Part shown: piece by piece, positions 3,276-27,340 of the stretch
Layout: each line of letters begins with the position of its first letter
Numbering within the stretch: position 1 is the first letter of the stretch
Source of the DNA: a virus
Length of the DNA stretch: 27,340 bases
Reading direction: 5' to 3' (one strand)
IMG/VR virus record: IMGVR_UViG_3300044731_001525
Span: 1 to 27,340 of that record
The notes under the pieces: model-generated
Database searches by the model: none
What the model saw: the letters and a program-made list of their open reading frames with translations, nothing else
What the model was told of the DNA's origin: nothing
Position numbers and translations under genes: made by a program

Positions 3276-3671
3276 ATGGTAGAACGAATTTCCCCCGAGT
3301 TAGTAGTTGATCTAGACGGCCACAAAGTAACCCTTTGTGGCACACTAGCGGTTCTTAAGAAACTGCAAATAGTTTATGACTGCGATATAGTCCAGTTTCA
3401 GGAAAAGATTATCGAGGCGCGTTTTGATGTGCTGGCTCAGATGTTCGAAATCTGCGCTAATAGTCCAGAAGTAAAAGCTGCTGATTTTGAAGCATGGATA
3501 TTGGATCATTGCGGCATTGATGAGGCTAAATATATTCTAATTGAGTTTTGGATTATTTCAGTTTCTCCCCAAAAAAAAAGGGAGAACAACAGAGAAATGA
3601 TCCAGGGGAAGATAGCGAACCTGCGGAAGGCCGCTGCTTTCCTTGGCGAGAGTACAGAGAGATTTGCTTAG
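3276..3671 (+). CDS. tail assembly chaperone, short form (gpG-like)
   Basis: A 131-residue protein located between the tube and tape measure genes, where the lambda G/GT chaperones lie. It starts ELVVDLDGHKVTLCGTLAVL, a form seen in GpG-like/GTA-type chaperones, and is mostly helical afterwards. Chaperones of this kind coat the tape measure during tail assembly. A run of nine A residues at 3571-3579 near the 3' end lets ribosomes slip by -1 into an overlapping frame that ends at 3865. The ribosome binding site before ATG 3276 is weak (TTAGGTAAAAA). Confidence 0.75.
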   Translation: MVERISPELVVDLDGHKVTLCGTLAVLKKLQIVYDCDIVQFQEKIIEARFDVLAQMFEICANSPEVKAADFEAWILDHCGIDEAKYILIEFWIISVSPQKKRENNREMIQGKIANLRKAAAFLGESTERFA

Positions 3672-3865
3672 GCGTCCTGGGCTGGAGTCCGTGCCAATTT
3701 TGGGCTGCTACGACCTGGGATATAATGGATGCTTTTGAGGGCTGGAAGGAAAAAACTGGCAGGAAAAACAAAGCTAATAAGCCGCCGACGAAGCAAGAAT
3801 ACAGAGACTTAAAGAATAAGTTTAAGGGACTAATAGAGAGGGCAGAAAGTGGCGGAATTAACTGA
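3548..3865 (+). CDS. tail assembly chaperone T part, expressed by -1 frameshift (GT form)
   Basis: This frame lies -1 relative to the G-like gene and shares its 3' portion. Downstream of the slippery run it encodes CLGVLGWSPCQFWAATTWDI and then MDAFEGWKEKTG, a pattern typical of phage/GTA tail chaperone C-terminal parts (LG-x-x-P-x-x-FW-x-x-T-x-x-E/D). After slipping on the A-run near 3572-3578 the fusion would be about 196 residues. An independent start at 3548 has no good ribosome binding site. The 3' end overlaps the tape measure start by 17 nt. Confidence 0.75.
   Translation: MDYFSFSPKKKGEQQRNDPGEDSEPAEGRCFPWREYREICLGVLGWSPCQFWAATTWDIMDAFEGWKEKTGRKNKANKPPTKQEYRDLKNKFKGLIERAESGGIN
3571..3579 (+). 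other. programmed -1 frameshift slippery run (A9)
   Basis: Nine consecutive A residues follow CCCC and precede GGG. In the G frame the codons are CAA AAA AAA AGG; slipping back by one gives AAA AAA AAG GGA. The heptamer A AAA AAA at 3572-3578 is a canonical -1 slippery site. Its place near the end of the G-like gene and the meaningful protein in the new frame support programmed shifting. I did not identify a clear downstream stimulatory hairpin. Confidence 0.75.
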
Positions 3866-5654
3866 ACTCTCGGTAAAAATATCGGCTGATTCGCGCGAAT
3901 TAAAGCGAGAACTCGGCGCAATCACGACTGCAACAGAAAAAACTACTGACGGGATGAAGCGCGCTTTTGGGGCGCTTGGAAACGTAGTTGCTGGCATCGG
4001 ATTAGCAAATCTTGCATCTGATATAAAGAACGCAAGCGTCCAGATGCAGGGGCTAGAGGCTAGACTAAATGCGACGACTGGCGGTGCAACGCAAGCAAGC
4101 GAGGCTATGACGTTCTTGCGGCAGATGGCGGATGCGCAAAAAGTTGATTTGATCGCTTTAAGTGATGCATATCTAAGGCTTTTACCAGCCGTGCAGACTA
4201 ATAAAATCTCGATGGAAGAGATGCGCGAAATCCTGCGCTTGATGAATGATAACTTTGCGGCATTACAGCTATCTACAAGCGAGCAGCAGCTTGCATTCCT
4301 TGGACTATCTCAGATGCTCACAAGTGGCACAGTGACGATGGAAGATATGCGGCAAGTAACTGATCGTTTGCCTGGCTCTTTTGATGCTATCGCCACAGCA
4401 ATAGGAGTATCTGCAAGCGATTTGCGTAAGATGATTTCGACGGGCACGGTGACGGCGGAGATGCTTAAAGGGCCTTTGCTTGAGGCCATGAGAAAGAACG
4501 AGGGCGCTGCAAAAAAGATGAGCGATACATATACTGCATCGATTACGTCCTTAGGCAACGTTTTTCGCGAGATGAGTTCTTCTTTGGGCCTAGTCGATGC
4601 TTTGTCAATGGCGATAAGAGGGCTGGAATTAGTCCTTATTACCCTCTGGAAGGCGTCCCTTTCTGTGCGTTTGGCATTTAATCTGATGACGGATGATCAA
4701 GAAGAATCCTTAAAAATCTCAAAAGAGCTAGAAAAAGTTACTGGTAAACTTGCCGAAAGGAACCGCGAGCTTGCCGCTAGCATGCCTGTCTTTGGGCTGG
4801 GGAATAAGGCCAAAATAGAGCATCCGCTAACTAAGTCCGCCGAGGGAGCAATTGAGAAAAATAAAGAACTGCAAGACATGGTTGACGATACAAAAGACAA
4901 AGAAAGTGATAAGGACAAAAAGGCCAGAAAAGAAAGAGAGAAATTAGCAAAAGAAGAAGAGGAAGGCAGAAAGAGACTGGCAAAGGACACCGAAAAAGAA
5001 GAAGCTGACAGGGTTGCGGACTTAAAAAAACAGACAGATGATTGGCTAGAAAACAATAAGACCGCATATGACGAGATTACAGAGCAAATAGGCTGGCAGT
5101 CGGAGCAATGGGCGGACGATATAAGCGCAGCTCTTGCAAGGGGTGAAGTGAGTTTTAAAAGCTTTAGAAATATGGCTAATAATATCCTGATGGACGTTTC
5201 GCAGGCTATTATCCGCGCCTCGATTGTTTCTCCGATAGTCTCTGGACTAACAAGCGCAATCACTGGCGGCATAGGAGCCGCATTTGGCTCTTCAAGCGGC
5301 TTAGCTCAACGCGGCGCGGGTGGCGCTCCGATCCCTGTGCTAAGGCCAACCACCAACATCAAGGGCTTTGCAGCGGGAGGGCAGCCGCCTATTAATCGTC
5401 TGTCAGTAGTCGGTGAAAATGGTCCAGAATTATTTATGCCTAAAATGGCGGGGACGGTTATCCCTAATGGCCAGGGACTTGGTGGCGGCGTGAGCGTCAC
5501 GAACGTTTTTAATATTTCTCCTGGACTAGAGTCCACGATTGCCGCCGCAATCATGAACGCCGCTCCAATCATTGAGCAGCGCGCGAAACAGGGAGTTTTT
5601 CAGGCTTTGGAGCGTGGCGGATCGGAAAGTAGATCTATTGGGCGGAGGGCCTAA
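3849..5654 (+). CDS. tail tape measure protein
   Basis: A 601-residue tape measure protein that fixes tail length. Residues about 60-215 match the tape-measure N-terminal domain (TIGR02675): ALSDAYLRLLPAVQTNKISM, LGLSQMLTSGTVTMEDMRQV, TDRLPGSF. Hydrophobic helices follow near 250-285. A long Lys/Glu coiled coil covers about 340-410, and the Gly/Ala-rich C-terminus has FAAGGQPPINRLSVVGENGP, a common end motif. Start GTG 3849 has GAGAGGG upstream and overlaps the chaperone stop. From the rule of about 0.15 nm per residue, a tail near 90 nm is expected (inference). Confidence 0.92.
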   Translation: MAELTELSVKISADSRELKRELGAITTATEKTTDGMKRAFGALGNVVAGIGLANLASDIKNASVQMQGLEARLNATTGGATQASEAMTFLRQMADAQKVDLIALSDAYLRLLPAVQTNKISMEEMREILRLMNDNFAALQLSTSEQQLAFLGLSQMLTSGTVTMEDMRQVTDRLPGSFDAIATAIGVSASDLRKMISTGTVTAEMLKGPLLEAMRKNEGAAKKMSDTYTASITSLGNVFREMSSSLGLVDALSMAIRGLELVLITLWKASLSVRLAFNLMTDDQEESLKISKELEKVTGKLAERNRELAASMPVFGLGNKAKIEHPLTKSAEGAIEKNKELQDMVDDTKDKESDKDKKARKEREKLAKEEEEGRKRLAKDTEKEEADRVADLKKQTDDWLENNKTAYDEITEQIGWQSEQWADDISAALARGEVSFKSFRNMANNILMDVSQAIIRASIVSPIVSGLTSAITGGIGAAFGSSSGLAQRGAGGAPIPVLRPTTNIKGFAAGGQPPINRLSVVGENGPELFMPKMAGTVIPNGQGLGGGVSVTNVFNISPGLESTIAAAIMNAAPIIEQRAKQGVFQALERGGSESRSIGRRA

Positions 5655-7224: not shown

Positions 7225-10091
7225 TCTTTTTTATCTTTGCATTGCTATTTAGTATTGCGGCTCACGCCGATCCAATAACAATCGGCTTGGGCGTTGCCTC
7301 TATTGCAGGCGCGGCAGCGGCGGCTGCTGCACCGACCATTCTTGCGGGCAGTATATTTGCAACCACTATCGGGGCCGCAGTTTTTGGCGGACTTGTTACG
7401 GCCACGCTTGGTTTTGTCGCATCGACCGTTTTTAAACCAAAAGCGCCAAAGTTTGATTTTTCGAGCTATCAAAACGGCGTGACCTTACAAACGCGCACAG
7501 CAGATGAGCCACACAAGATTATCTATGGCACAGCGCGGGTCGGAGGAAATCTTTCTTTTATGCAGACTGAATCAAGCGGTTTTAGGTCCGATGGATCGGC
7601 TAAGTCTGGAGATAATCCTTTTTTACATTTGATGGTATCAATCGCAGGGCATGAGCTCGAGGAGATTACAGCAGTTTATTTCGATGATCAGGCTCTAACG
7701 CTTGATGGCAGCGGCTTTGTTACAAGCGCTCCTTTTTTTCGCGATGGATTTAGTTATGCACGGATTATAAAACATCTCGGGACTACTACGCAAGCCGCCG
7801 ATTCCGTCGCTCTTGCGCGGGTGAGTGGCTGGGACTCTAATTTTCAGGGTAGGGGGATTGCTTACCTGCATGTGATACTAGAGTTCAATACGGATATTTT
7901 TATCAATGGCGTTCCTAACATTTCGGCGCTTGTAAAAGGCCGAAAAGTCTATGACCCTCGCAGCAGTACGACTGCTTGGAGTAATAATCCAGCTTTATGC
8001 GTAAGGGACTATTTGACAGCTGATTTCGGCTTTGCAGTGCCCTCGTCTCGCATAGATAATGTTAGTTTTAGCGATATTGCGGATTTGTGTGATGAGGCTG
8101 TTACAAAAAAGGATGGCAGCACCCATGCGCGTTTTACCTGTGATGGCGTTTTATCTATGGAGCAGTCGGCTATAAATAACCTTGACATACTGACAAGCTC
8201 GTTACTTGCTCCCGTAACATACTCGCAAGGCAAATTCCGCTGTCACGCGGCGGCATATAATATTCCCGTGCTAGATGTCACCGACGATATGTTGGCTGGA
8301 CCAATAAAAATAGTTCCTAGGATGGAGCGTAAAGACCTTTTTAACGCCGTAAAAGGCGGGTTTGTTGACGCAAGCAACCTGCACACACCGACCTCTTTTC
8401 CTACGGTACTCAATGCAACTTATGAGGCCGAAGACGGCGGGACGCGCATAGAGAAAGAGGTTAATTTCCCCATGCAAATTGACCCTGAAAGATGTCAAAG
8501 GATGGCTAAAATAATCCTAGAAAAAGCCAGGCAATCAATAATGATTGACATGCACTTAAACATCTCTGGCATGCAACTTGCGGTCTTTGACGTAATAACA
8601 AGGACTGATGCGGATTTCGGCTGGGTCAATAAAGAGTTTAGAATAGTCCATTGGGAGTTCGAGCCGACTTCTGGTGTAAAAATAATGGCGCAGGAAGAAA
8701 ATTCTGCTTCGTATGACTGGAACTCTGGGGAGGCGACTATTTATGATTCTGCACCAAATACCAATCTTGCAAATCCATTTTCTGTTTCTGCTCCTGGCGC
8801 ACCGAGCGCGGTTGAGTCTCTTTATAGTACGATTGAAAGCGGCGGAGTTAAGGCTAAAGCCGTTGTCAGCTGGTCGCCCTCCTCAGATTCTTTTACCGAT
8901 TCATATGTCCTGGAGTACAAACTAACCACTGATTCAGATTATATAGTCTTGCCTAGGACTATAGATACAAGCTTTACTATTTTTGATGTGAAGCCTGGCA
9001 ACTATAACTTCAGGGTGCGCGCGCAAAACTCTGTTGGCGTTTTATCAGACTACGCATCCTCGGTGATTGCTTTATATGGACTTTCTGCGCCGCCTGCTAA
9101 CGTTGCGGGCTTTTCGCTTAATCAAATCCACAATAATGCGCACCTGTCCTGGGATTTGGCTACGGATCTTGATGTCAGGATCGGTGGCACGGTGCGGCTT
9201 AGATATACTCCACTTACAACGGGGGCGAGCTGGTCAGCCGCCGTAGATATAACCTCGGCTCTAGCTGGCGTTGCTACTCATGCAGTAGTGCCACTTTTAG
9301 CGGGTACTTACATGGCTAAGTTTCTCGATTCGACGGGCACGGAGTCCACCGCCGCCGCTGAAATAACCTCGTCTGTCGCAAATATAGTCCCCCTTAATGC
9401 CATTTTAACAAGGGATGAACACCCTACTTTCAGCGGCGCAAAAACCAATATGACAGTTGCGTCAAGCAACCTAAAACTGACGGGAGCTGGGCCTTTTAGC
9501 ACGTCTGGAGTCTACGAGTTTGCGAGCTATTTAGATGTTGGAGTTGTTACAACATCAAGAATATCGATGGAGATGCAGGCTACTGTGGCAAACGGAAATG
9601 ACACATTTGACGAAAGACCTGGACTCTTTGACGATGCCGCTGGACGCTTTGATGGCGAAGACGTGACTGGCATTGATGTTTATTTTTATGTATCTAGCAC
9701 AAGTGATGATCCTGCTGGCTTGCCAACCTGGAGTCCCTGGAGAAAAGTTATCGTTGGCGACTACACCGCGCGCGCGTTTAAGTTTAAAATCGAGGTGGCG
9801 TCTTCTGACGACGCCTTAAATATATCTATATCTAGTCTTTCTGCTGTCGTTGATGTGCCAGACCTAACCGACAGTGGTGTTATAACGACTAGCTCTAGCG
9901 CTGCAACAAGCGTGACATTTAACAAAGTTTTTACTACAACTGCTGTGGCTGGCGGAACCATGCAGAACGCCCAAACTGGCGATTTTATCACAATCACAGG
10001 AACAACAATTACGGGATTCACTTTAAATGCTTATAACTCTGGCGGGACTAGAATAGTGAGAAATGTAAAATGGGAAGCACATGGATATTAA
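7212..10091 (+). CDS. J-like tail tip / host specificity protein
   Basis: A large tail tip protein (about 959 residues) that probably contacts the host surface. I choose TTG 7212, with GGGAG 8 nt upstream, because it gives a neat N-terminus MRYIVFFIFALLFSIAAHA; GTG 7191 is the longer alternative without a good site. A second Ala/Gly-rich hydrophobic stretch follows. Residues about 60-500 carry the tail-protein core (HKIIYGTARVGGNLSF; CVRDYLTADFGFAVPSSRID). About 540-640 looks like fibronectin type III (SYVLEYKLT, YNFRVRAQNSVG). The C-terminal part ends with IVRNVKWEAHGY, a form common in J-like proteins. Confidence 0.88.
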   Translation: MRYIVFFIFALLFSIAAHADPITIGLGVASIAGAAAAAAAPTILAGSIFATTIGAAVFGGLVTATLGFVASTVFKPKAPKFDFSSYQNGVTLQTRTADEPHKIIYGTARVGGNLSFMQTESSGFRSDGSAKSGDNPFLHLMVSIAGHELEEITAVYFDDQALTLDGSGFVTSAPFFRDGFSYARIIKHLGTTTQAADSVALARVSGWDSNFQGRGIAYLHVILEFNTDIFINGVPNISALVKGRKVYDPRSSTTAWSNNPALCVRDYLTADFGFAVPSSRIDNVSFSDIADLCDEAVTKKDGSTHARFTCDGVLSMEQSAINNLDILTSSLLAPVTYSQGKFRCHAAAYNIPVLDVTDDMLAGPIKIVPRMERKDLFNAVKGGFVDASNLHTPTSFPTVLNATYEAEDGGTRIEKEVNFPMQIDPERCQRMAKIILEKARQSIMIDMHLNISGMQLAVFDVITRTDADFGWVNKEFRIVHWEFEPTSGVKIMAQEENSASYDWNSGEATIYDSAPNTNLANPFSVSAPGAPSAVESLYSTIESGGVKAKAVVSWSPSSDSFTDSYVLEYKLTTDSDYIVLPRTIDTSFTIFDVKPGNYNFRVRAQNSVGVLSDYASSVIALYGLSAPPANVAGFSLNQIHNNAHLSWDLATDLDVRIGGTVRLRYTPLTTGASWSAAVDITSALAGVATHAVVPLLAGTYMAKFLDSTGTESTAAAEITSSVANIVPLNAILTRDEHPTFSGAKTNMTVASSNLKLTGAGPFSTSGVYEFASYLDVGVVTTSRISMEMQATVANGNDTFDERPGLFDDAAGRFDGEDVTGIDVYFYVSSTSDDPAGLPTWSPWRKVIVGDYTARAFKFKIEVASSDDALNISISSLSAVVDVPDLTDSGVITTSSSAATSVTFNKVFTTTAVAGGTMQNAQTGDFITITGTTITGFTLNAYNSGGTRIVRNVKWEAHGY

Positions 10092-13608: not shown

Positions 13609-14138
13609 ATGAAATCGAGCCTAAAAAAAGACTGTCGCTAAAATATGACGGCGGCACGATGATGACGGCTGAGCACACGGCCAAGATAATAAAAAGACTT
13701 AACGACTTTTTGCGAACATCGTTGCCAGCGAGCTATTGCCGTAATTGGTTTGCGCGCCGAAGCGGACTAAGTCCGCAGATACTTTTTAAGATCATGACAA
13801 GTCCGCCGAAGCGATTATCTGTAAAAGTCGCGGAGAAGATACAGCGGGCCATTGATGGAGATGATATAAGAGCGATTTGCTTGATCACTCAGACTGAGTC
13901 TGGCTTTTATGTAGCGGAGCTTGATAGAGAGTACAGTACCGTTCTGGCTGCGCTGATCGAGGCTTATGCCGCTGGTTACACCCACGCAAGCCCGCCGAAT
14001 GCTGGCATTGTAGATACGATATATATATATGAGATTATAAAAATTATCGAGAAAGATAAGATTCGGCATTTTTCCATTTTTAAAATTGCAAAAAAGATAC
14101 TAGAAACGCACCACAAAAGAGCGTCCAGCGCCCTGTAA
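13605..14138 (+). CDS. hypothetical protein with helix-turn-helix-like segment
   Basis: A 177-residue protein starting with ATGA overlap on the holin gene. Residues about 48-82 (NWFARRSGLSPQILFKIMTS, then KRLSVKVAEKIQRAI) look like a helix-turn-helix of the lambda-repressor or Cro type. The C-terminal half is helical with hydrophobic stretches (IVDTIYIYEIIKIIE). It could be a DNA-binding regulator of late or early genes. It closes the late operon, and the next gene begins after a promoter module. Function is inferred from the helix-turn-helix resemblance only. Confidence 0.55.
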   Translation: MNEIEPKKRLSLKYDGGTMMTAEHTAKIIKRLNDFLRTSLPASYCRNWFARRSGLSPQILFKIMTSPPKRLSVKVAEKIQRAIDGDDIRAICLITQTESGFYVAELDREYSTVLAALIEAYAAGYTHASPPNAGIVDTIYIYEIIKIIEKDKIRHFSIFKIAKKILETHHKRASSAL

Positions 14139-14166
14139 TCCGCTCCGCGCCTAGCTTTCCCGCCAT

Positions 14167-14280
14167 ATAAAAAATATTTTACATTTTGTAAAAAACTGCT
14201 TGCAATCTTTTTTGCGTGAGCTATAAAGATTGCCACAGGCAAACAGCTTGAAACATAAAAAACAAAAAACGGAGACAAAC
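14167..14280 (+). promoter_or_regulatory. promoter/leader module, copy A
   Basis: Contains TTGCAA (14200-14205), a 16-bp spacer and TATAAA (14222-14227), a sigma70-type promoter. GCAATCTTT (14202-14210) and AAAGATTGC (14225-14233) form a perfect inverted repeat spanning the core promoter, a likely operator. TTGCC-ACA-GGCAA (14230-14242) is a small hairpin at the start of the leader. The ribosome binding site CGGAGACAAAC precedes ATG 14281. About 83 nt differ from copy B at one base. Confidence 0.75.
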
Positions 14281-14718
14281 ATGGATACAATTTTTGACGA
14301 TATTATTGCTCTTGGCACTAAAAAAACATGGGTCAGGAAAGAACTGGACAGGATTTTTACAGCATTTGGCAAGCAGTTGGCGACAAGAGCAATGCAGGCT
14401 GAAATCAAGCTTGACATTGACACTGTGTACGAGTTGGAGTCCTTTTCTCGCGACGCCCATTGGGGATGTGCAAAAAGAATTTACAATATTAGGCTCTATG
14501 CGGAGCCTGATTTAACAGAGCTTACACTAGAGCGCATTGATATAGATGAGCACGGGCGAGTCACGCGCGTGGATCTGTGCGTGCTCGATGCCGATACGGA
14601 TTTTCGGGTTGTGCGACTAGCAGCGCAATCCTTACCTAATGCTTTGCATGCTTTCAAAACTTTTATAGCCGCCGAACTGCAGGAATTAAATGACATTAAA
14701 TTGGATAGCTGCGGCTAA
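14281..14718 (+). CDS. hypothetical early/accessory protein
   Basis: A 145-residue acidic protein. I take ATG 14281, which follows the conserved CGGAGACAAAC site of the promoter module; the upstream in-frame start would lie within the leader. Segments include KTWVRKELDRIFTAFGKQLA, a helical first third, and YNIRLYAEPDLTELTLERID, a beta-rich middle, then helices. No family, membrane segment or metal site is recognised. As first gene after copy A of the promoter module it is likely transcribed early. Confidence 0.7.
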   Translation: MDTIFDDIIALGTKKTWVRKELDRIFTAFGKQLATRAMQAEIKLDIDTVYELESFSRDAHWGCAKRIYNIRLYAEPDLTELTLERIDIDEHGRVTRVDLCVLDADTDFRVVRLAAQSLPNALHAFKTFIAAELQELNDIKLDSCG

Positions 14719-14734
14719 AGTAGGCGGACTATCT

Positions 14735-14761
14735 GTAGCGGTCACGATTTGTGACCGCTAC
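14735..14761 (+). other. perfect 11-bp stem-loop between accessory genes
   Basis: GTAGCGGTCAC and GTGACCGCTAC form a perfect 11-bp stem with loop GATTT. No T-run follows on either strand, so it is not a standard intrinsic terminator. It lies in the 76-nt gap before the gene at 14795, and could be an RNase III processing site, an mRNA stabiliser or a protein-binding site. Confidence 0.6.
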
Positions 14762-14794
14762 GAAAGGAACATTAACAAAAAACGGAGACAAAAT

Positions 14795-15109
14795 ATGATT
14801 CCCTCCCTGAGAAAAAACGGAAATTCCGATTTTCCTGATTTTGCGGACGCCATAGTAGAGCACGGCGAAAAGTTCGCACGCTGGTTTATTAAAGATAACG
14901 CTAATTTAATTCTCGAGGACCTACTTTCCTTCGAACCGTTGCTGAAAGGGCTTTCAGCCGCCGTTGCGCACGAGCTGGATGAAAAATACGGCTATTTTTG
15001 CCCTCTTAAAAGGGAACTTTACGAAAACGGCGCGGAGGCAGAATTTTTCAGCATTTGGAATAAAATGCTGCTGCTAAAAGAATGCGGACTAGTCTTAGAA
15101 AAAAAGTAG
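14795..15109 (+). CDS. hypothetical protein (104 aa)
   Basis: ATG 14795 follows AAAAAACGGAGACAAAAT, the same ribosome-binding context as in the promoter modules; the longer in-frame start at 14690 would run through the hairpin and is less likely. The protein is acidic and helical (FADAIVEHGEKFARWFIKDN, then LLKGLSAAVAHELDEKYGYF). No family recognised. It is the second gene of the first promoter module group, behind a strong stem-loop. Confidence 0.65.
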   Translation: MIPSLRKNGNSDFPDFADAIVEHGEKFARWFIKDNANLILEDLLSFEPLLKGLSAAVAHELDEKYGYFCPLKRELYENGAEAEFFSIWNKMLLLKECGLVLEKK

Positions 15110-15136
15110 AACTAACAACAAAAAACGGAGCTTATT

Positions 15137-15508
15137 ATGAGTAAAAGATTTTTTTATGCGCTTGTGGCTGAATTTACTGGCGTCAGCGCGGTCGAGTATC
15201 AGCGCGGATTTGCAAACACAAAAATCGCAGTCGCTTTCCGCTGCAAGCAAGACAGGGAGGACTTTTTAGACATGACACGCGACTTAAGCGCAAAGACTAT
15301 AACCCGCCGTGAAGCAAAGAAGCTGACTACCGACTGCAGCCATTTATTCGCGGGGACTTTTGTACCCTTTTGGGAGCATGAGCATGGGGTGGTGGAGGGA
15401 ATCGAAATCCTGGAGAGGTACTGGGTTAATGATGTAGCGGAGCATCCCTCTATGGTGTGGGCCTTGGCTAATGAAGCTAAAGTGAGCGGGCTAAAAGCAG
15501 TCCAATAG
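15137..15508 (+). CDS. hypothetical protein (123 aa)
   Basis: ATG 15137 follows AAAAAACGGAGCTTATT, a good ribosome binding site. The protein is mixed alpha/beta with segments FFYALVAEFTGVSAVEYQRG, FRCKQDREDFLDMTRDLSAK and a C-terminal ILERYWVNDVAEHPSMVWAL. No known motif is identified, and no signal peptide or membrane helix. It ends the first small gene cluster; a structured non-coding stretch and promoter module B follow. Confidence 0.65.
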   Translation: MSKRFFYALVAEFTGVSAVEYQRGFANTKIAVAFRCKQDREDFLDMTRDLSAKTITRREAKKLTTDCSHLFAGTFVPFWEHEHGVVEGIEILERYWVNDVAEHPSMVWALANEAKVSGLKAVQ

Positions 15509-15532
15509 AATTTAATCTGTAAAGGCCAAAAA

Positions 15533-15612
15533 ATGGAAATTGATAAAATTAAGAGATAATGGCGGGCACAACGCCGTAAAGCGCTGGAAACGGCCCGCCA
15601 TGTGCTTGTGCC
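15533..15612 (+). other. leader-like micro-ORF and competing stem-loops
   Basis: The 266-nt gap after 15508 holds an 8-codon ORF (15533-15559, MEIDKIKR) with AAAGG upstream. It is followed at once by ATGGCGGGC (15559-15567) pairing with GCCCGCCAT (15593-15601). An alternative stem GGCACAA (15565-15571)/TTGTGCC (15606-15612) is mutually exclusive with it, and GCCGT/ACGGC (15573-15577/15590-15594) could form a third pairing. There is no T-run, so it is not a plain terminator. Whether it is a regulatory RNA is inference. Confidence 0.4.
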
Positions 15613-15659
15613 GAAAAAATCGAAGCTTTGTACTTATAGCCATATAATTCCCCCGCGCA

Positions 15660-15774
15660 ATAAAAAATATTTTACATTTTATAAAAAACTGCTTGCAATC
15701 TTTTTTGCGTGAGCTATAAAGATTGCCACAGGCAAACAGCTTGTAATAACAAAACAAAAAACGGAGACAAAAAA
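15660..15774 (+). promoter_or_regulatory. promoter/leader module, copy B
   Basis: TTGCAA (15693-15698), 16-bp spacer and TATAAA (15715-15720), with the same GCAATCTTT/AAAGATTGC inverted repeat and TTGCC-ACA-GGCAA hairpin as copy A, ending in CGGAGACAAAAAA before ATG 15775. A CCCCCGC box and an A/T-rich tract lie just upstream, as in copy C. It drives the genes from 15775. Confidence 0.75.
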
Positions 15775-16083
15775 ATGACCACACCACAAATCAAAGCAAC
15801 TGCGTACACTGCGTACTACGTTAAAATTATCGGCCAGGGTACATGGGGCCCCTACGGATTGCCTGTGGCTATGACTATGGCCGAAGAATTATGCAGGGAT
15901 TTTGGCCGCGAAACTATAGCGTGCATCTACGACGAGGAGCCATACATTGAGGCCGATGATAGGGACGCGCGTGAGATTTACCACGTGTATGTATCAGGGG
16001 TCACGGGATTGCCTATTATTTATGACTTACGAGCTGAACGACGGCTCCCGCAATTTTGCCAGCAGGGCAAAAGGGCAAAATAA
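15775..16083 (+). CDS. hypothetical protein (102 aa)
   Basis: ATG 15775 follows the module B ribosome binding site; the longer in-frame start lies in the leader. The protein has TAYTAYYVKIIGQGTWGPYG, a central AEELCRDFGRETIACIYDEE and IYHVYVSGVTGLPIIYDLRA, suggesting a small beta-rich fold with one helix. The C-terminus is basic (QQGKRAK). No family recognised. First gene of the second promoter group. Confidence 0.65.
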   Translation: MTTPQIKATAYTAYYVKIIGQGTWGPYGLPVAMTMAEELCRDFGRETIACIYDEEPYIEADDRDAREIYHVYVSGVTGLPIIYDLRAERRLPQFCQQGKRAK

Positions 16084-16138
16084 AAAACAAGCGCACGTGA
16101 GATTTACTACTTAAATAAAAACAAAAAAAGAGGCATTT

Positions 16139-16573
16139 ATGGAAGCTGCAGAAATCCAAGCGCAGATAGCGCGCGGAAAAGAAAAAGGCTATATTAGGCA
16201 ACTGCCTGATGGCAGGCTTGCTGTTAAAATAGTCCCCGTCCTGAGCGATAGCTGGTTGGTTGTAAGGCGCGATGCGCCTAAGAGCTTTTTGGTAGAGAGG
16301 AGTAATTTTAAACATATATTTTCCCAAAGCTTAAACGCCATAAAAATCGAATACGAAGAGACACTGATAGCTATATGCTATCCGCCAGAAAGTCCCAATG
16401 CTGGCATAGATGCTGATATTGCAGAGTGCATTGCTTCAGCGTCCGAGGGCCGCTTGGCAATAATATCTCATGATGAGTTAATTGTAGAGGCACACGGCCA
16501 TTATTTAGATGCTACTTGGGGCCTTAAATACCTAGAAAAAATCAAAGAGGAGGATTTTTTGTGCCCGCTCTAA
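16139..16573 (+). CDS. hypothetical protein, paralog 1 of a tandem pair
   Basis: A 144-residue protein with AAAAGAGGC before ATG 16139. Its N-terminal 60 residues (IRQLPDGRLAVKIVPVLSDS, then RRDAPKSFLVE) match the same region of the next gene, including an identical 23-nt stretch at 16203-16225 and 16625-16647. The C-terminal halves differ. No fold family recognised. It overlaps the next gene by 13 nt, so both are co-translated. A duplicated small accessory gene. Confidence 0.7.
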   Translation: MEAAEIQAQIARGKEKGYIRQLPDGRLAVKIVPVLSDSWLVVRRDAPKSFLVERSNFKHIFSQSLNAIKIEYEETLIAICYPPESPNAGIDADIAECIASASEGRLAIISHDELIVEAHGHYLDATWGLKYLEKIKEEDFLCPL

Positions 16574-17064
16574 AATTTACGCAAGATATAGAATATTACA
16601 AAAAGCAAGGGCGTATTAAGACTTTGCCTGATGGCAGGCTTGCTGTTCAGGTAGATTCCTTAGGCCATATTTTGTTGGCTATCAAGCATGATGCGCCCAA
16701 AAGCTTTCTCGTCGAAAGCCACGAGGGAGGCAACTATGATCACACATCCTGCGGTAGTCGGGACGTGGCGGTAGAAGTTATAAAAAATGGCTGCAAAAAA
16801 TATTGCGCAGACTACAACAAGGGAAAAGCACTTGAAGCGCTGGGGAGTAATGCAAGCCAGGCGGATATAGACTTTTTTATCGATACTACGCTAACGGCAT
16901 GGGCGAAATCCATCTTGTACGAAGTATCGCAAAAAGAAATAATTTTGTTACTTGCTTCCTATCGGGGGGACTTTTTTGAAAAATATTGCGACAAAATAAG
17001 TGCCGCCAGTTTAGTCCAAGAGGGAAAAGACTCCACACATCAGACTTATGCGCGATTATACTGA
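16561..17064 (+). CDS. hypothetical protein, paralog 2 of a tandem pair
   Basis: A 167-residue protein starting at GTG 16561 with the strong site GAGGAGG 7-8 nt upstream. Residues about 18-55 (RIKTLPDGRLAVQVDSLGHI, KHDAPKSFLVES) align with the preceding gene. The remainder, with helices around YCADYNKGKALEALGSNASQ and a Lys/Ile-rich middle, is not shared. No known function. It is followed by a 175-nt gap. Confidence 0.7.
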   Translation: MPALKFTQDIEYYKKQGRIKTLPDGRLAVQVDSLGHILLAIKHDAPKSFLVESHEGGNYDHTSCGSRDVAVEVIKNGCKKYCADYNKGKALEALGSNASQADIDFFIDTTLTAWAKSILYEVSQKEIILLLASYRGDFFEKYCDKISAASLVQEGKDSTHQTYARLY

Positions 17065-17114
17065 GCCGCCAAGATGCTTTTAATGGCAGATAGACTTTTT
17101 CAAAACTTTTAATC

Positions 17115-17165
17115 GCAGAAAAGCAATCCATTGATTATATTGATTATTATCCGTCTCTTTTCTGC
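17115..17165. other. inverted repeat in the 17065-17239 gap
   Basis: GCAGAAAAG (17115-17123) and CTTTTCTGC (17157-17165) form a perfect 9-bp inverted repeat, with an AT-rich loop containing the tandem TTGATTATATTGATTAT. No T-run follows. The gap holds no ORF. It may be a binding site or weak attenuator. Confidence 0.35.
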
Positions 17166-17239
17166 AATCCCGCCGTTTTATTCTGCATTAATTTTAAAGG
17201 GCCGAAAGAAAATAAAGATAAAAAATAGGAAGAGTTTTT

Positions 17240-17698
17240 ATGGCCGAAAAAGATTTTATTACTTTGCAAGACGCAGGCAAGATTTTTGGGCTTAGCTCCG
17301 CCGCTCTGCGCGGACTTTTTCACAGGAACAAGCCGCAGACTTTATACGGCCTGCATTACATTAAAAGCGGCGTCTCTGGCTCAAAGAATCTTCTTTGCGC
17401 AAAAAAAGTTGCTGAGATTAAAAAAGAGCTGGCAGAAAGTGGCAAGAGATTTTGCTGTACTTTGGATGCAGAGTTTATCGGCCTCCGCCAGGCGGCGGCC
17501 TTGCTTGGCGTGCATTACCACCAGATGCGCTACCTATATCGTGCAGGCTATCTAAGGGCAGCGGAGATAGAGCCACTTAAGATAAAAAAGAGCAGCGGCG
17601 TTTTTGTTTTTTTTAAAAAGCAGGATATTATCTCGCGTAAAAAAGCTGTAGCAAAGCCGCGCTTTTATAGCAAAAAAGCCACTTCCCCCGCCAAATAA
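17240..17698 (+). CDS. tandem excisionase/MerR-type helix-turn-helix protein
   Basis: A 152-residue protein with two similar units. Unit 1, about residues 6-50, is FITLQDAGKIFGLSSAALRG with LHYIKSGVSGSKNLL; unit 2, about 79-130, is FIGLRQAAALLGVHYHQMRY with a strand ending FVFFKKQDI. Each resembles a small winged-helix domain as in excisionases and MerR-like HTH_17 proteins. The C-terminus is lysine-rich. It probably binds DNA and could regulate the promoter modules, but that is inference. AGGAAGAG lies before ATG 17240. Confidence 0.6.
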   Translation: MAEKDFITLQDAGKIFGLSSAALRGLFHRNKPQTLYGLHYIKSGVSGSKNLLCAKKVAEIKKELAESGKRFCCTLDAEFIGLRQAAALLGVHYHQMRYLYRAGYLRAAEIEPLKIKKSSGVFVFFKKQDIISRKKAVAKPRFYSKKATSPAK

Positions 17699-17809
17699 AA
17701 TTCTTTTTGTTTTTTATAAAAAAGTACTTGCATTTATTTTTATACGAGCTATAAAGATTGCCACAAGCAAACAGCTTGCAACATAAAAACAAAAAACGGA
17801 GACAAAAAA
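17698..17809 (+). promoter_or_regulatory. promoter/leader module, copy C
   Basis: TTGCAT (17728-17733), 16-bp spacer and TATAAA (17750-17755), then ATTGCCACAAGCAAACAGCTTG and CGGAGACAAAAAA before ATG 17810. The leader matches copies A and B, but the -35/spacer half is diverged, and the GCAATCTTT half-site of the inverted repeat is lost. A TTCCCCCGCC box lies just upstream, as for copy B. Confidence 0.7.
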
Positions 17810-18322
17810 ATGGCTTGGGAATATCCAAAACACGCATGCGGACACGATGGCGAGAGAGTACAAATGTATGGGCCGTACAAAGATAGGGCTTACAAGTTGG
17901 CGCGCATGGAAGAGCAAGATTGCGCGCAGTGCAGGATAGCGGCTATCAAAAACGAAATTAGTGATTTACCAGCCTTGCAAGGCACAGATAAGCAGATTGT
18001 ATGGGCTGATGATCTGCGAAAACAAGCACTTGCTAAGCTTGATAAGATAGCTGCGGCTAAAGTAGATATGGGCGGCGGCAAACCAGAGGCATCAGAGGTA
18101 GTTGAATCAATATTTTGCTTAATTTTTGCTAAAATTAAAAAGCAGGCACAAGCGCGCTTTTGGATTGACGGCGTAGTGGATTATTACTCGGGCAAAAGCA
18201 AAAGTTATATAGTTAACTATTTTTTACAAAGGAACGGAAAGGCATTGCAGGCAGAGGGCGCGCAAAATTTGTCTGATTGCCTGCGAATAATAGAAGCAGA
18301 TGCAGATAAATTTGATTTATAA
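17810..18322 (+). CDS. hypothetical protein with N-terminal zinc-ribbon-like Cys motif
   Basis: A 170-residue protein with C10-G-H and C38-x-x-C41 in the first 45 residues, spaced like a small zinc ribbon (HACGHDGERVQMYGPYKDRA, then EEQDCAQCRIAA). A conserved segment follows: PALQGTDKQIVWADDLRKQA. This pattern (zinc-ribbon head plus GT-x-KQI-x-WA-x-x-L/IR) occurs in a family of uncharacterised proteins in bacteria and phages. The C-terminal ARFWIDGVVDYY fits it. First gene of the third promoter group. Confidence 0.65.
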   Translation: MAWEYPKHACGHDGERVQMYGPYKDRAYKLARMEEQDCAQCRIAAIKNEISDLPALQGTDKQIVWADDLRKQALAKLDKIAAAKVDMGGGKPEASEVVESIFCLIFAKIKKQAQARFWIDGVVDYYSGKSKSYIVNYFLQRNGKALQAEGAQNLSDCLRIIEADADKFDL

Positions 18323-18344
18323 TACATAGCGCGGAGAAAAAAAA

Positions 18345-18579
18345 GATGAAAACAAGGCAACCAACAGTAATTGCAATTTACAAAATTGGCGGAGTTTACC
18401 GCGCTACAATAAGCGGGCATTTTGGCGGTGGCGGTCAGAACATTTTTTGCGGGCGTGATGAGCATGCTGCAGCAGGGCTGCTGATCTCTTATATCTGGCG
18501 TTACGGGCGCAATAATCCTCTTGGTTATCATTACGTTGCACCGCCAGAGATAAAAAATTTAATACCAGCTGTAATTTAA
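18345..18579 (+). CDS. hypothetical protein (77 aa)
   Basis: A 77-residue basic protein with GCGGAG upstream of the ATG at 18345. It reads PTVIAIYKIGGVYRATISGH, then a Gly-rich GGGGQNIFCGRDEHAAAGLL and ISYIWRYGRNNPLGYHY. The short repeats of aromatic residues and Gly suggest a small compact fold. No family is recognised. It stands second in the third promoter group. Confidence 0.6.
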
Positions 18580-18598
18580 TCTAAGAGGGGGAGCTTAT

Positions 18599-18673
18599 AT
18601 GTTTAAAAAATATATCCCGAAAAAAACAAAAAACGGAGACAAAAAATGGATAAAAAACACTTTTACAAAATGA
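18599..18673 (+). CDS. 24-codon upstream ORF overlapping the next gene start
   Basis: ATG 18599 has the strong site GAGGGGGAGC upstream. The frame encodes 24 residues (MFKKYIPKKTKNGDKKWIKN and four more), very basic, and runs through the conserved leader CAAAAAACGGAGACAAAAA and the start of the next gene in another frame. It may be a leader peptide that couples or tunes translation of the 18646 gene, or simply a by-product of a tandem start region. Confidence 0.35.
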   Translation: MFKKYIPKKTKNGDKKWIKNTFTK

Positions 18674-19011
18674 CAAAAAAAGACCTCGCTTTTGAGGCCT
18701 TGCTTGACGAGTTTCTACCTGCGCCGCTTGGCTGGATCCATTGGGGCCTTGGCACTTTGCGCACAGCGGAGGGAAAAGGCAAGATAGATGGCTTTTATGT
18801 ACGTGGCACTCGTGGCGGGAGCGGCGGTGGCTCTTTAAAAGAGTTTTTTCGGGATTACAGCGTGCAGGAGGCGAATAAATTTTTGTTTGTAAGACTTTTT
18901 CGCGGCCACATACTTTTAGTCGGGAGAAGAGGAAAGGACGGAAAGGGAGTTGATCGCTGCAGTAATGATGATGTGATAAATATCCATCTCTCAATGCCCG
19001 ATAAAGAGTAA
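18646..19011 (+). CDS. hypothetical protein (121 aa)
   Basis: ATG 18646 follows the conserved ACGGAGACAAAAA leader. The protein is basic and alpha/beta: KDLAFEALLDEFLPAPLGWI, a Gly-rich GGSGGGSLKEFF and RLFRGHILLVGRRGKDGKG. No family recognised. It ends shortly before a G-rich hairpin and the DUF6378 gene. Confidence 0.6.
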   Translation: MDKKHFYKMTKKDLAFEALLDEFLPAPLGWIHWGLGTLRTAEGKGKIDGFYVRGTRGGSGGGSLKEFFRDYSVQEANKFLFVRLFRGHILLVGRRGKDGKGVDRCSNDDVINIHLSMPDKE

Positions 19012-19068: not shown

Positions 19069-19341
19069 ATGCAAGAAAAATCAACAGACCAAATAATTTC
19101 TGAGCGCGAAAAAACGCACGGAGACTATTCAGACTGCGCCGCGACTTACAACAGAATAAAAAAAATCCTCCGCAGCACCGTTGACATGCCAGATGAACTT
19201 TTGCTTGCACGCGACATGATAGCGCTAAAGCTTGCTAGGATAGCCTCTGGAGATGCAGGATTTTTGGATCATTGGGCAGACATTGCTGGCTATGCGCAGC
19301 TTGCAGTAGATTACTTGCAGAGCAAAAAAAATGCCGATTGA
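19069..19341 (+). CDS. DUF6378-like protein
   Basis: A 90-residue protein resembling the DUF6378 phage family: ISEREKTHGDYSDCAATYNR near the N-terminus and LLLARDMIALKLARIASGDA then HWADIAGYAQLAVDYL in the C-terminal half. These motifs (R-E-x-T-H-G-D-Y/F, A-x-x-M-I-A-L-K-x-A-R-I, H-W-x-D-I-A-G-Y-A) are the recognisable hallmark. Role unknown in phages. ATG 19069 has AAAAAGGAAAAAG upstream. It overlaps the next gene by 11 nt. Confidence 0.75.
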   Translation: MQEKSTDQIISEREKTHGDYSDCAATYNRIKKILRSTVDMPDELLLARDMIALKLARIASGDAGFLDHWADIAGYAQLAVDYLQSKKNAD

Positions 19342-19711
19342 CAGAGCTGCAGAGGCGGCCCTGGCATTGCAAAGATACATTAGGCAGCAGATTAGTCTGG
19401 ATCAAGTCATGCAGTATATAGATGTTCCTGGCTTTCCGCATCCTCTGATTTTTTTGCGGCAGATTAGTCTGGTTAGTCACCCTGATTACGCCACAAAAAT
19501 AGAAAAAAAAGTGCTACAAACTGGCTGTAGGTGGAACAGAAAAATCTACAAAGATACGATTTTTTTAAGACTGGCGGGCAGGTCTGTTGGCCAAATAAAA
19601 GTTACCGAAGAGGAGATAAAAGAACATGAATGGCGCATAAAGACGATACATATCTACACCGATAAAAGCCGTTTTCATCCGAAAAAAATTTGCGCTTTGC
19701 ATTGTAACTAA
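19331..19711 (+). CDS. hypothetical protein (126 aa)
   Basis: A 126-residue protein starting inside the DUF6378 gene. The N-terminal part is helical (AEAALALQRYIRQQISLDQV), and the C-terminal half is basic (ATKIEKKVLQTGCRWNRKIY, then EEIKEHEWRIKTIHIYTDKS). A tail with HPKKICALHCN carries two Cys and two His residues. No family recognised. It ends the accessory cluster before the replication region. Confidence 0.6.
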   Translation: MPIDRAAEAALALQRYIRQQISLDQVMQYIDVPGFPHPLIFLRQISLVSHPDYATKIEKKVLQTGCRWNRKIYKDTIFLRLAGRSVGQIKVTEEEIKEHEWRIKTIHIYTDKSRFHPKKICALHCN

Positions 19712-19867: not shown

Positions 19868-20992
19868 ATGCAGATAAAAAACTGGCAGAATCTCCAGCAC
19901 TACAAAGATCGCCGCCCGGAGTGGATAAAGCTATATAGCTCTTTGCTCCAGACATATGAGTATGTCGGACTTACCGACACGTCAAAGCTACTCCTTTTTA
20001 CTCTATACCTCCTCGCATCTCGCACAATCGAGGGCACCATCCCATACGATCTATCATATATACGGCAGCAGGGCGCTATATCAGCTCCTATAACCTCAGA
20101 GCATATCCAAGAGCTTGTAGATAAAGGATTTTTAGCGCTGACCGATAAAGAGCAGTGTCCGCTAGCAAGTTGCTATCAAGATGCTAGCAACTTGCTAGCA
20201 GAGTGCTACAGCGAGCAAGAGGCGGCAAAAAATGTCGGTCAAAATGTTAATATTTCTGGCGGCGAAAACGCCGATATTTCCCCTGGACTAAACCGACATG
20301 ACGCGGAAAAAACTGTTATAAATCAAGACCTGGTGCAAAGTGCTAGCAACTTGCTAGCAGAGTGCTATCAAAGTGCTAGCCTAGAGAGAGAGACAGAGAT
20401 AGAGAAAGAAAGAAAGAAAGATAAAACCGCGAAAACCGAAAAGTCGGTTTCCTCGGATTTTGTTTTCCCCGAGGATTTTTTGGATTTTTGGAAAAAATAT
20501 CCCGAAAAAATGCGAAAAGAAAAAAAAGAGGCGCTGAAAGCCTGGAAAACAGCCGCAAAGAAGGTCGGGGCTGAAAAAATCCTAGCCTGCTTAGATGCCG
20601 CTAATCGGCGCTGGGCGGCCGTTCCGAGGGGCGCGCAGGACTGGCAGCCACCGCCGCCATATCCTGCAAAGTGGCTCAAACACGAGCCTTGGCTTGATAG
20701 CGAGGGCCTGCCAGGGCTTTTTGATGCAGCGCCTGTTGCCGTCGTGGAGGTGCCAGGAGACCCGCTCTTTACCGCGGTTAGAGGGCGGCTTATGGAGCTT
20801 TACGGCGAGGGGGTTTTTAGGTCATTTTTCGAAAAAATGACTTGCTCAAAGTCGGGAAATATCGTTGTATTTCAGGTAAATATGGAGATAAAACAGCGGA
20901 TGATTACCCAAAATTACGGCTCCATGCTTAGATCCATCTTAGCGGGGATTGATCCAGAATTGATGTATGGCGGGGTAAAACATGCACAGTAA
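19868..20992 (+). CDS. replication initiator-like protein (lambda O-type)
   Basis: A 374-residue protein. The N-terminus (NWQNLQHYKDRRPEWIKLYS, then DTSKLLLFTLYLLASRTIEG) is the winged-helix region seen in phage replication initiator or organiser proteins. A charged, low-complexity middle (about residues 95-195) carries repeated ASNLLAECY units. The second domain begins with DFLDFWKKYPEKMRKEKKEA (about 203-222), the FW-x-x-Y-P motif of initiator/loader proteins, and ends with a helical C-terminus. It probably binds the repeats in its own gene and recruits the host helicase (inference). ATG 19868 has AAAGGAA upstream. Confidence 0.75.
   Translation: MQIKNWQNLQHYKDRRPEWIKLYSSLLQTYEYVGLTDTSKLLLFTLYLLASRTIEGTIPYDLSYIRQQGAISAPITSEHIQELVDKGFLALTDKEQCPLASCYQDASNLLAECYSEQEAAKNVGQNVNISGGENADISPGLNRHDAEKTVINQDLVQSASNLLAECYQSASLERETEIEKERKKDKTAKTEKSVSSDFVFPEDFLDFWKKYPEKMRKEKKEALKAWKTAAKKVGAEKILACLDAANRRWAAVPRGAQDWQPPPPYPAKWLKHEPWLDSEGLPGLFDAAPVAVVEVPGDPLFTAVRGRLMELYGEGVFRSFFEKMTCSKSGNIVVFQVNMEIKQRMITQNYGSMLRSILAGIDPELMYGGVKHAQ
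20161..20380 (+). repeat. iteron-like palindromic repeats, candidate replication origin
   Basis: TGCTAGCAA-C-TTGCTAGCA, a 9-bp perfect palindrome with a 1-nt centre, occurs at 20182-20200 and 20341-20359. The repeat extends to 27 identical bases (20182-20208, 20341-20367). A diverged half-copy lies at 20161-20177 and single GTGCTAGC/GTGCTATC units at 20362-20380. A long purine-rich GA tract follows (20381-20422). Iterons inside an initiator gene followed by an unusual-composition tract resemble the lambda origin in gene O. The spacing of 159 nt keeps the reading frame. Confidence 0.6.
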
Positions 20993-24751: not shown

Positions 24752-24790
24752 ATATTGATGCGCCAAAAACAGAAAACAAAGGAGACTAAA
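24752..24790 (+). repeat. 39-bp leader repeat, copy 1
   Basis: A 39-bp direct repeat identical to 25050-25088, running from ATATTGATGCGCC through GAAAACAAAGGAGACTAAA. Copy 1 lies between two stop/start junctions and carries the ribosome binding site for the gene at 24793. It also opens a 14-codon frame starting at 24745. Confidence 0.7.
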
Positions 24791-24792
24791 AA

Positions 24793-25056
24793 ATGACAAA
24801 TTATTATTACTTTAGAAAGCCAGGCTCGGAAGAAATACAAGAAATTCTGGCTGCTTCGCCCACTGAAGCGTTCGGCGAGTACGCCCAAAATTTATTGAGG
24901 GGGGCCGATGAGAATATACGCCGAAAAATGGTGAATGGCCTTACAGTAGAGTGCCTTAAGGATGCTGTTCTTTGGGAAAAGTGGGCTATTTTTACTGATT
25001 TGCAGCGTTTTGTTTTTAAAAAAATGACCGCTGACGATGAAATTGGATCATATTGA
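24793..25056 (+). CDS. hypothetical protein (87 aa)
   Basis: An 87-residue protein following AAAGGAGACTAAAAA. It reads YYYFRKPGSEEIQEILAASP, FGEYAQNLLRGADENIRRKM and LTVECLKDAVLWEKWAIFTD. Mostly helical, acidic, no family recognised. It lies exactly between two copies of the 39-bp leader repeat, so its insertion or duplication may be recent. Confidence 0.6.
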   Translation: MTNYYYFRKPGSEEIQEILAASPTEAFGEYAQNLLRGADENIRRKMVNGLTVECLKDAVLWEKWAIFTDLQRFVFKKMTADDEIGSY

Positions 25057-25088
25057 TGCGCCAAAAACAGAAAACAAAGGAGACTAAA
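25050..25088 (+). repeat. 39-bp leader repeat, copy 2
   Basis: Second identical copy of the 39-bp repeat at 24752-24790. It ends the 24793 gene and provides AAAGGAGACTAAAG before ATG 25093. Confidence 0.7.
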
Positions 25089-25092
25089 GAAA

Positions 25093-27089: not shown

Positions 27090-27340
27090 CGACAAAGAAA
27101 GAGTGCTACAGGCGATTTTACGCCATGACCTGGCAAGCTTTACGCATAAAGTCTTCAGGACGGTTGACCCTAGCACAGAATTTTCCAGCAATTGGCATAT
27201 TGATTTAATAGCGGACTATTTAACGGCATGTTCAAAAGGCGGTATAAAGCGCCTGATTATTAATATCCCGCCGCGATTTATGAAGACTATTTCGGTATCT
27301 GTTGCATGGCCTGCGTGGTTGTTGGGGCACGATCCTTCTG
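27076..27340 (+). CDS. terminase large subunit (N-terminal part, 3' truncated by window)
   Basis: The frame from ATG 27076 runs off the right edge (88 codons seen). The N-terminus VFRTVDPSTEFSSNWHIDLI, then GGIKRLIINIPPRFMKTISV at about residues 55-74, and SVAWPAWLLGHDPS, is the classic start of large terminase ATPases with the PPRFMKT Walker A variant. It packages DNA into the prohead. It overlaps the DUF5681 gene by 14 nt. The nuclease domain and the head genes must lie beyond the window. Confidence 0.9.
   Translation, partial: MQEADDKERVLQAILRHDLASFTHKVFRTVDPSTEFSSNWHIDLIADYLTACSKGGIKRLIINIPPRFMKTISVSVAWPAWLLGHDPS

Follow-up and report, generated by a model that had tools for sequence, protein, structure and literature searches.

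Between the lysis-side genes, which end at position 14138, and a replication gene at 19868, the virus record IMGVR_UViG_3300044731_001525 carries an array of small open reading frames (ORFs) on the plus strand, in which a module consisting of a putative promoter and its leader is present three times. The complete record of 27,340 bases was analyzed and is referred to here as the window; all features lie on its plus strand unless indicated otherwise. Copy A of the module (14155-14284) heads the cluster 14281-15508, which comprises A1 (14281-14718, 145 amino acids), A2 (14795-15109, 104 amino acids) and a third ORF (15137-15508). Copy B (15648-15777) precedes the cluster 15775-17064 with B1 (15775-16083, 102 amino acids), B2 (16139-16573, 144 amino acids) and B3 (16561-17064), the latter an N-terminal paralog of B2. 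Copy C (17683-17812) stands at the head of 17810-19011, where C1 (17810-18322, 170 amino acids) is followed by a second ORF (18346-18579) and by a third (18646-19011) with a ribosome-binding box of its own. Relatives were looked for and not found for the third ORF of cluster A and the second ORF of cluster C. The 5' edge of copy C overlaps the final codons of a gene (17240-17698) for a helix-turn-helix (HTH) protein resembling HTH_17/excisionase. The gaps holding the modules measure 142, 266 and 111 nucleotides (nt), each in front of a gene cluster of the same direction, and all three copies end at the start codons of unrelated genes, A1, B1 and C1 sharing no mutual similarity. The central claim of the initial annotation, that a repeated promoter/leader precedes unrelated small ORFs, is supported by this arrangement.

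The three near-copies described in the initial annotation are present, and the full repeat extends over 130 nt. When copy A was used as a BLAST query, copy B was returned with an E-value of 1.7e-47 (96% identity over 112 nt) and copy C with 6.1e-28 (86% over 95 nt), so that chance similarity is excluded. A fourth copy is absent from the record, the remaining matches covering the ribosome-binding box only. Over the 87 positions that run from ATAAAA through the leader, copies A and B show two differences, one of them within the first 84, in line with the reported one base in 83. Copy C has 19 differences from A and 18 from B, mostly upstream of the -10 hexamer. The proposed recent duplication is accordingly plausible for A and B; copy C is more diverged. 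Throughout the stretch AGCTATAAAGATTGCCACA(R)GCAAACAGCTTG the three copies are the same apart from the R site, and the roughly 33 nt from just before the -10 hexamer to about +16 contain this single variable site, in contrast to the diverged upstream part of C. Clustering of the changes outside the chosen stretch gives a hypergeometric p of 0.004-0.007, which becomes 0.05-0.09 when any 33-nt stretch is allowed, and is only suggestive of conservation of the -10/+16 block. Taken together, near-identical intergenic copies are found upstream of genes in one direction, as expected of repeated promoters.

Each copy has the same layout, in which A/T tracts are followed by TTGCA(A/T), 16 nt, TATAAA, 7 nt, an A, the leader, a ribosome-binding box and ATG. 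The combination of hexamers and spacer, as previously described, is found in all three copies (14200-14227 in A, 15693-15720 in B and 17728-17755 in C). The -10 hexamer matches the consensus at five of six positions, the -35 hexamer at four (TTGCAA) or three (TTGCAT), and the spacing is 16. A lone TTGCAA/TATAAA pair is no better than chance as a promoter prediction, and support comes from its repetition and context. Upstream lie UP-like A/T tracts, in copy A at 14170-14195, including an A6 tract (14190-14195) that would occupy -45 to -40 if +1 is at 14235. This A6 at about -45 to -40 is invariant in an alignment of six promoters. The full UP consensus is matched at 10-11 of 14 positions, the best match in A and B being offset upstream. 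A comparison of the module with Rfam yielded no match up to an E-value of 1.

Folding of the leader revealed a small hairpin directly behind the promoter. In copy A it reads CAGGC-AAACA-GCUUG (14236-14250, -5.1 kcal/mol), copy B carries it at 15729-15743 (-6.4 kcal/mol) and in copy C it reads CAAGC-AAACA-GCUUG (17764-17778, -5.4 kcal/mol). The share of shuffles of the first 24 nt that fold as well as the native sequence is 0.004, 0.0015 and 0.001, respectively. With +1 placed at the A located 8 nt past the -10 hexamer, the CARGC-AAACA-GCUUG stem begins at +1 or +2 and is thus 0-1 nt from the predicted 5' end of the RNA. The sole substitution in the core, from G14238/G15731 to A17766, converts a G.U into an A-U pair and leaves the pairing intact; it counts as one event, not three, as the copies are related. 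The initial annotation had favored a different leader hairpin, TTGCC-ACA-GGCAA. In copy C that structure loses its closing loop pair, and its stability declines from -3.9 to -1.3 kcal/mol. With TATAAA as the -10 hexamer, moreover, no plausible start lies far enough upstream to include its 5' arm, so that it would be transcribed only in part. It was given up for CARGC-AAACA-GCUUG; the core substitution preserves the latter and disrupts the former. These details also bear on the notion that the copies are nothing more than a recent duplication and have no selected role. The near-identity of A and B would agree with it, as would other duplications in this phage, such as the paralogs 16139 and 16561 and the 42-nt leader that stands ahead of both 24793 and 25093. 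We nevertheless regard it as very improbable, because each copy runs up to the start codon of a gene unrelated to the other two and because C has diverged upstream yet kept the -10/hairpin block with a substitution that preserves the pair.

In copies A and B, a perfect 9-bp inverted repeat (GCAATCTTT/AAAGATTGC; 14202-14233 and 15695-15726) spans -35 to -10, whereas its left arm is lost in copy C, which thus lacks the repeat, as the initial annotation had claimed. Comparable inverted repeats turned up in 1.6% (arms with at least three G/C) to 6.5% of Markov-shuffled modules and, since A and B are not independent, the repeat is weak evidence for an operator. It could be imagined that a phage DNA-binding protein, be it the HTH protein encoded at 17240 or another one, coordinates the promoters as a regulon by binding at this repeat or at the -10/+16 block. 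Such control would be compatible with the promoter function favored here and would agree with the strict conservation from -10 to +16 in all copies, with the perfect repeat in A and B, with a weak -35 hexamer of the kind that suits a regulated promoter, and with an HTH gene that adjoins copy C and has weak HTH_17/excisionase matches. However, the repeat does not persist in C and can arise by chance at the rates given above, the conserved block is equally well explained by the -10 hexamer plus hairpin, and no homolog of the HTH protein was found in relatives. All in all we consider a regulon possible but doubtful. The HTH protein had been proposed as the shared regulator. A pattern search of viral_contigs returned no relative, nor is there one in the two related phage genomes introduced below, and a single-sequence model was unusable for structure search (predicted local distance difference test, pLDDT, of 37). 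As nothing beyond co-location speaks for it, it is a possible candidate by position only. The non-coding stretch before its gene (17115-17221) is 86% identical to positions 13970-14073 and 3535-3638 of these two genomes, where it precedes an unrelated repeat protein.

Searches with C1, A1 and B1 led to two related phage genomes, IMGVR_UViG_3300044731_001718 (G001, 28,141 bases) and IMGVR_UViG_3300017747_003602 (G002, 36,874 bases), which share long stretches at 92-99% identity and are both unlike the window in most genes. Neither contains the module. The exact core pattern had no match in viral_contigs and blastn of module A none in the phage collection. Searches for close relatives via tail, ParB-like and Sak4-like proteins returned none or only distant ones, and L006 and L007 are without such repeats. 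G001 has its own repeated element (1431-1482, 4199-4250 and 9767-9818), the first two copies of which are present in G002. Aligned on the -35 hexamer, these elements carry an (A/C)TAAAAAATA-like sequence placed 33 nt before TTG, followed by an A-tract; the hexamer itself reads TTGACA or TTGACG/TTGAAG and is separated by 16 nt from one that resembles a -10. Promoter P1 of G001 and G002 comprises A/T tracts, a -35 hexamer, a 16-nt spacer, a -10 hexamer and a 9-bp stem-loop from +3 (-13.0 and -10.6 kcal/mol); no stem-loop was found by folding behind P2 and P3. When a matrix was built from the five G001/G002 sites, copies B and A ranked second and third among 54,558 positions of the window and copy C 152nd. 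The promoter architecture is common to the window and both relatives.

This shared architecture matters for the question of whether the module needs a phage-encoded or alternative factor, such as a middle/late activator or polymerase, with the conserved block as its binding site. The weak -35 hexamer, the conserved -10/+16 block and a core sequence seen in no other viral contig would agree with such a factor. On the other hand, the -10 hexamer is near consensus, the spacing is 16 nt and the A-tract occupies the UP position; the TTGAC-type promoters of the relatives have the same layout, and no polymerase or sigma gene was recognised among the non-structural genes scanned, in a record from which part of the genome is missing. 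We therefore judge an alternative factor unlikely.

The site CGGAGACAAA had been assigned to the module by the initial annotation. It recurs in front of 14795 and 18646, and close variants of it precede 21790, 22277 and 23161; we reject the assignment because this distribution identifies it as the phage-wide ribosome-binding box. The box AAACGGAGACAAA of A1 (14267-14279) is also found at 14780, 15759, 17794 and 18631. Allowing up to two mismatches, there are eight boxes on the plus strand of the window and one on the minus strand, with 0.6 expected per strand, and all eight on the plus strand sit 1-3 nt before ATG. G001 contains seven and G002 six on the plus strand, with one each on the other strand.

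Genes of the array recur in the relatives in a different order. A1 is 90% identical in G001 and 86% in G002, B1 74% and 87%, B2 47-49%, and a gene that is common to the arrays of both relatives and lies without a module in the window (24793-25056) 72-76%. C1 (89%) occurs in G001 only; A2 is 90% identical in G001, and G002 has it as a fusion with another domain. The order in G001 is C1, 24793-like, B1, A1, A2, B2, compared with A1, A2, B1, B2, C1, 24793 in the window. These reordered genes establish independently that the array is a modular one of accessory genes, as had been suggested. At most junctions the last 22 nt upstream of ATG are 0.77-1.00 identical, and the next bins are close to random (mean 0.48). 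Exceptions are A2, which travels with A1 and has high identity throughout, and B2, with box identities of 0.68 and 0.32. Since the box is common to many genes, its identity alone is no proof of co-movement, and the finding is the sharp drop beyond it. As homology mostly stops about 22 nt upstream of ATG, what is exchanged appears to be an ORF together with its ribosome-binding box, each phage retaining its promoter. In G002, gene 32195 lies directly behind P2; the gene is absent in G001, where the promoter is almost unchanged.

Mobility of the regulatory cassette itself, as implied by the initial annotation, does not agree with this exchange of genes without their promoter. One could still envisage the module as a mobile or recombination unit, i.e., a PeSL-like cassette or an attachment site that moves genes between phages, given that direct repeats flank the gene blocks and could recombine. 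We consider this hardly probable, as the same genes occur in G001 and G002 without the module and as homology breaks at the ribosome-binding box. A scan of the plus strand just upstream of the modules also failed to detect a stem-loop with T-run resembling an intrinsic terminator. The gap before module B contains a strong inverted repeat (15559-15602, ATGGCGGGC...GCCCGCCAT) without a T-run. A perfect hairpin, GTAGCGGTCAC-NNNNN-GTGACCGCTAC, is situated between A1 and A2 (14735-14761); it recurs in G001 (4992-5018) and G002 (33281-33307) with identical arms and a varying loop.

We conclude that the module is probably a strong, phage-specific sigma70-type promoter with an UP-like A-tract and a 5'-terminal stem-loop that has been tripled so that each of three accessory operons is driven by its own copy. 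The TTGCAA/T-16-TATAAA sequence would be bound by host RNA polymerase carrying the housekeeping sigma factor, with the A6 tract (about -45 to -40) contributing as a proximal UP subsite; transcription would start, possibly early in infection, at 14235, 15728 and 17763. The RNA would begin directly with the small stem-loop, which may shield it from 5'-end-dependent decay; an unstructured leader rich in A and a strong ribosome-binding box would come next. Behind these promoters, which would be fixed in each phage, genes would swap between phages as units of box and ORF. Our assumptions about sigma70 use, promoter strength, start site and RNA protection draw on studies of phage promoters with UP, -35 and -10 elements (PMC2988021), of UP subsites (PMC4390567) and on the work listed in PMC3997798. 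Several observations weigh against this interpretation. The -35 hexamer is poor, and a consensus promoter scan of the window does not list the module promoters, returning 25 promoter-like sites compared with 25.7 in shuffles. A/T-rich sequence readily yields UP-like matches, the leader hairpin is small, and in G001 neither P2 nor P3 has one. The reverse matrix test was weaker, with P1, P2 and P3 of G001 ranking 10th, 338th and 178th for a matrix built from the window, and homology with the G001 promoters, i.e., their common descent, is therefore not established.

Repeated phage promoters in variable regions are known from PAK_P1-like phages (PMC4309531), and the module resembles them in that several near-identical intergenic promoters occur in a variable region, are conserved beyond -35 and -10 and have a clade-specific sequence. 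It differs from their TTGACA-N17-TAgAAT in its weak -35 hexamer, 16-nt spacer, A-tract and 5'-terminal stem-loop, and it belongs to another phage lineage. T4 early promoters (PMC2988021) likewise are many similar strong promoters with UP, -35 and -10 elements that are served by host sigma70 polymerase, features of which strength and sigma factor would apply to the module by analogy; unlike the module, with its poor -35 hexamer and absent TGn, they match the consensus well and have TGn. The 5' stem-loops that stabilise the bacterial ompA and papA mRNAs (references listed in PMC3997798) are situated at the RNA 5' end or a few nt from it and are followed by an unstructured leader, as is predicted for that of the module. 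The module stem is short by comparison (5-6 bp), its protective effect is a prediction, and its position and stability are predicted by folding only. The SAS/ESAS elements of cluster K mycobacteriophages (PMC3203893) offer a parallel in a box that resembles a ribosome-binding site and precedes many non-structural genes from different families, and in a longer conserved element further upstream of a gene subset, the sequence of which varies between subclusters. ESAS, however, are 17-bp imperfect inverted repeats, whereas the upstream element of the module is a promoter with a leader hairpin, and the sequences are unrelated. Membership in SAS/ESAS was dismissed, the box being AAACGGAGACAAA here and GGGATAGGAGCCC there and copy C lacking an inverted repeat, so that the two are alike in layout only. 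PeSL cassettes of T4-type phages reportedly combine promoters and stem-loops (Arbiol 2010, Comeau 2014, cited in PMC4503421). These elements are similarly placed where small genes shuffle between phages; in the window, homology breaks at the ribosome-binding box without the promoter moving along, and the stem-loop is in the leader and is not a terminator. Membership in this group was likewise rejected on account of these breakpoints and of the missing terminator-like site.

Repeated phage promoters are thus a known kind of gene control; the most nearly novel aspect is that the ribosome-binding box would mark the seam at which different phages exchange single genes. As a possible though doubtful reading, the shared box may serve as a recombination seam, by which an acquired gene would at once be transcribed, stabilised by the 5' stem-loop and translated while each phage keeps its own promoter; this idea is based on three genomes. 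If every operon is headed by a copy of the phage's own promoter and genes are exchanged behind it at a uniform box, the array would illustrate in compact form how a reservoir of small genes of unknown function stays expressible in phages whose uncultured hosts are probably alphaproteobacteria, with exact transcription starts and leader structure predicted. The virus is a tailed phage, and its tail-tip protein is, among named phages, most similar to those of Roseobacter and Pelagibacter phages (26-35% identity), which makes an alphaproteobacterial host likely. The exchanged genes exhibit ratios of nonsynonymous to synonymous substitution (dN/dS) of 0.20-0.64, which indicates that the ORFs are real genes. 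When the cassette proteins were scanned for defence functions and against Pfam, NCBIfam and PHROGs, essentially nothing matched beyond C1 (phrog_16123, function unknown) and the HTH protein. A1 and B1 had no match in genome_contigs or in the phage collection, and the structure model of A1 (pLDDT 50) was too poor for structure search. Being under purifying selection in different phages, A1, A2, B1, B2 and C1 are worth functional tests.

A few further features of the three genomes were noted. In G002, positions 33341-34039 (L016 from 10515) encode a fusion in which an A2-like C-terminal part is joined to a relative of the window protein 19331 (19331-19711) at the domain level, which is a domain-level exchange within the same array. 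Positions 1-152 of the window match G001 18607-18456 at 98.7%, and its last 127 nt (27214-27340) match G001 28141-28015, also the end of that record, at 100%, suggesting a shared head/packaging segment that is missing from the record, and an assembly break at a shared word. G001 (L013) contains divergent TTGACA promoter-like sites at 9271 (minus strand) and 9297 (plus strand) beside a small HTH gene (8981-9202, minus strand), which looks like a regulatory switch, and 21-bp repeat arrays (L013, 12252-13407 and 14143-14476) that encode repeat proteins of the GDVSxI/GNVSxI type. Elsewhere in the window, a 42-nt leader is duplicated at 98% (24752-24793 and 25050-25091) before the genes at 24793 and 25093, and proteins 24005 and 25093 are paralogs. 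Eleven-bp repeats (GTGCTAGCAAC-like) at 20155-20208 and 20336-20389, within the replication initiator-like gene 19868-20992, resemble origin iterons of the lambda O type. Finally, in 3548-3671, where ORF 3276-3671 overlaps ORF 3548-3865 in another frame just before a tape-measure-like gene, nine A follow CCCC (near 3571-3579), a candidate site for a frameshift of the lambda G/GT kind.

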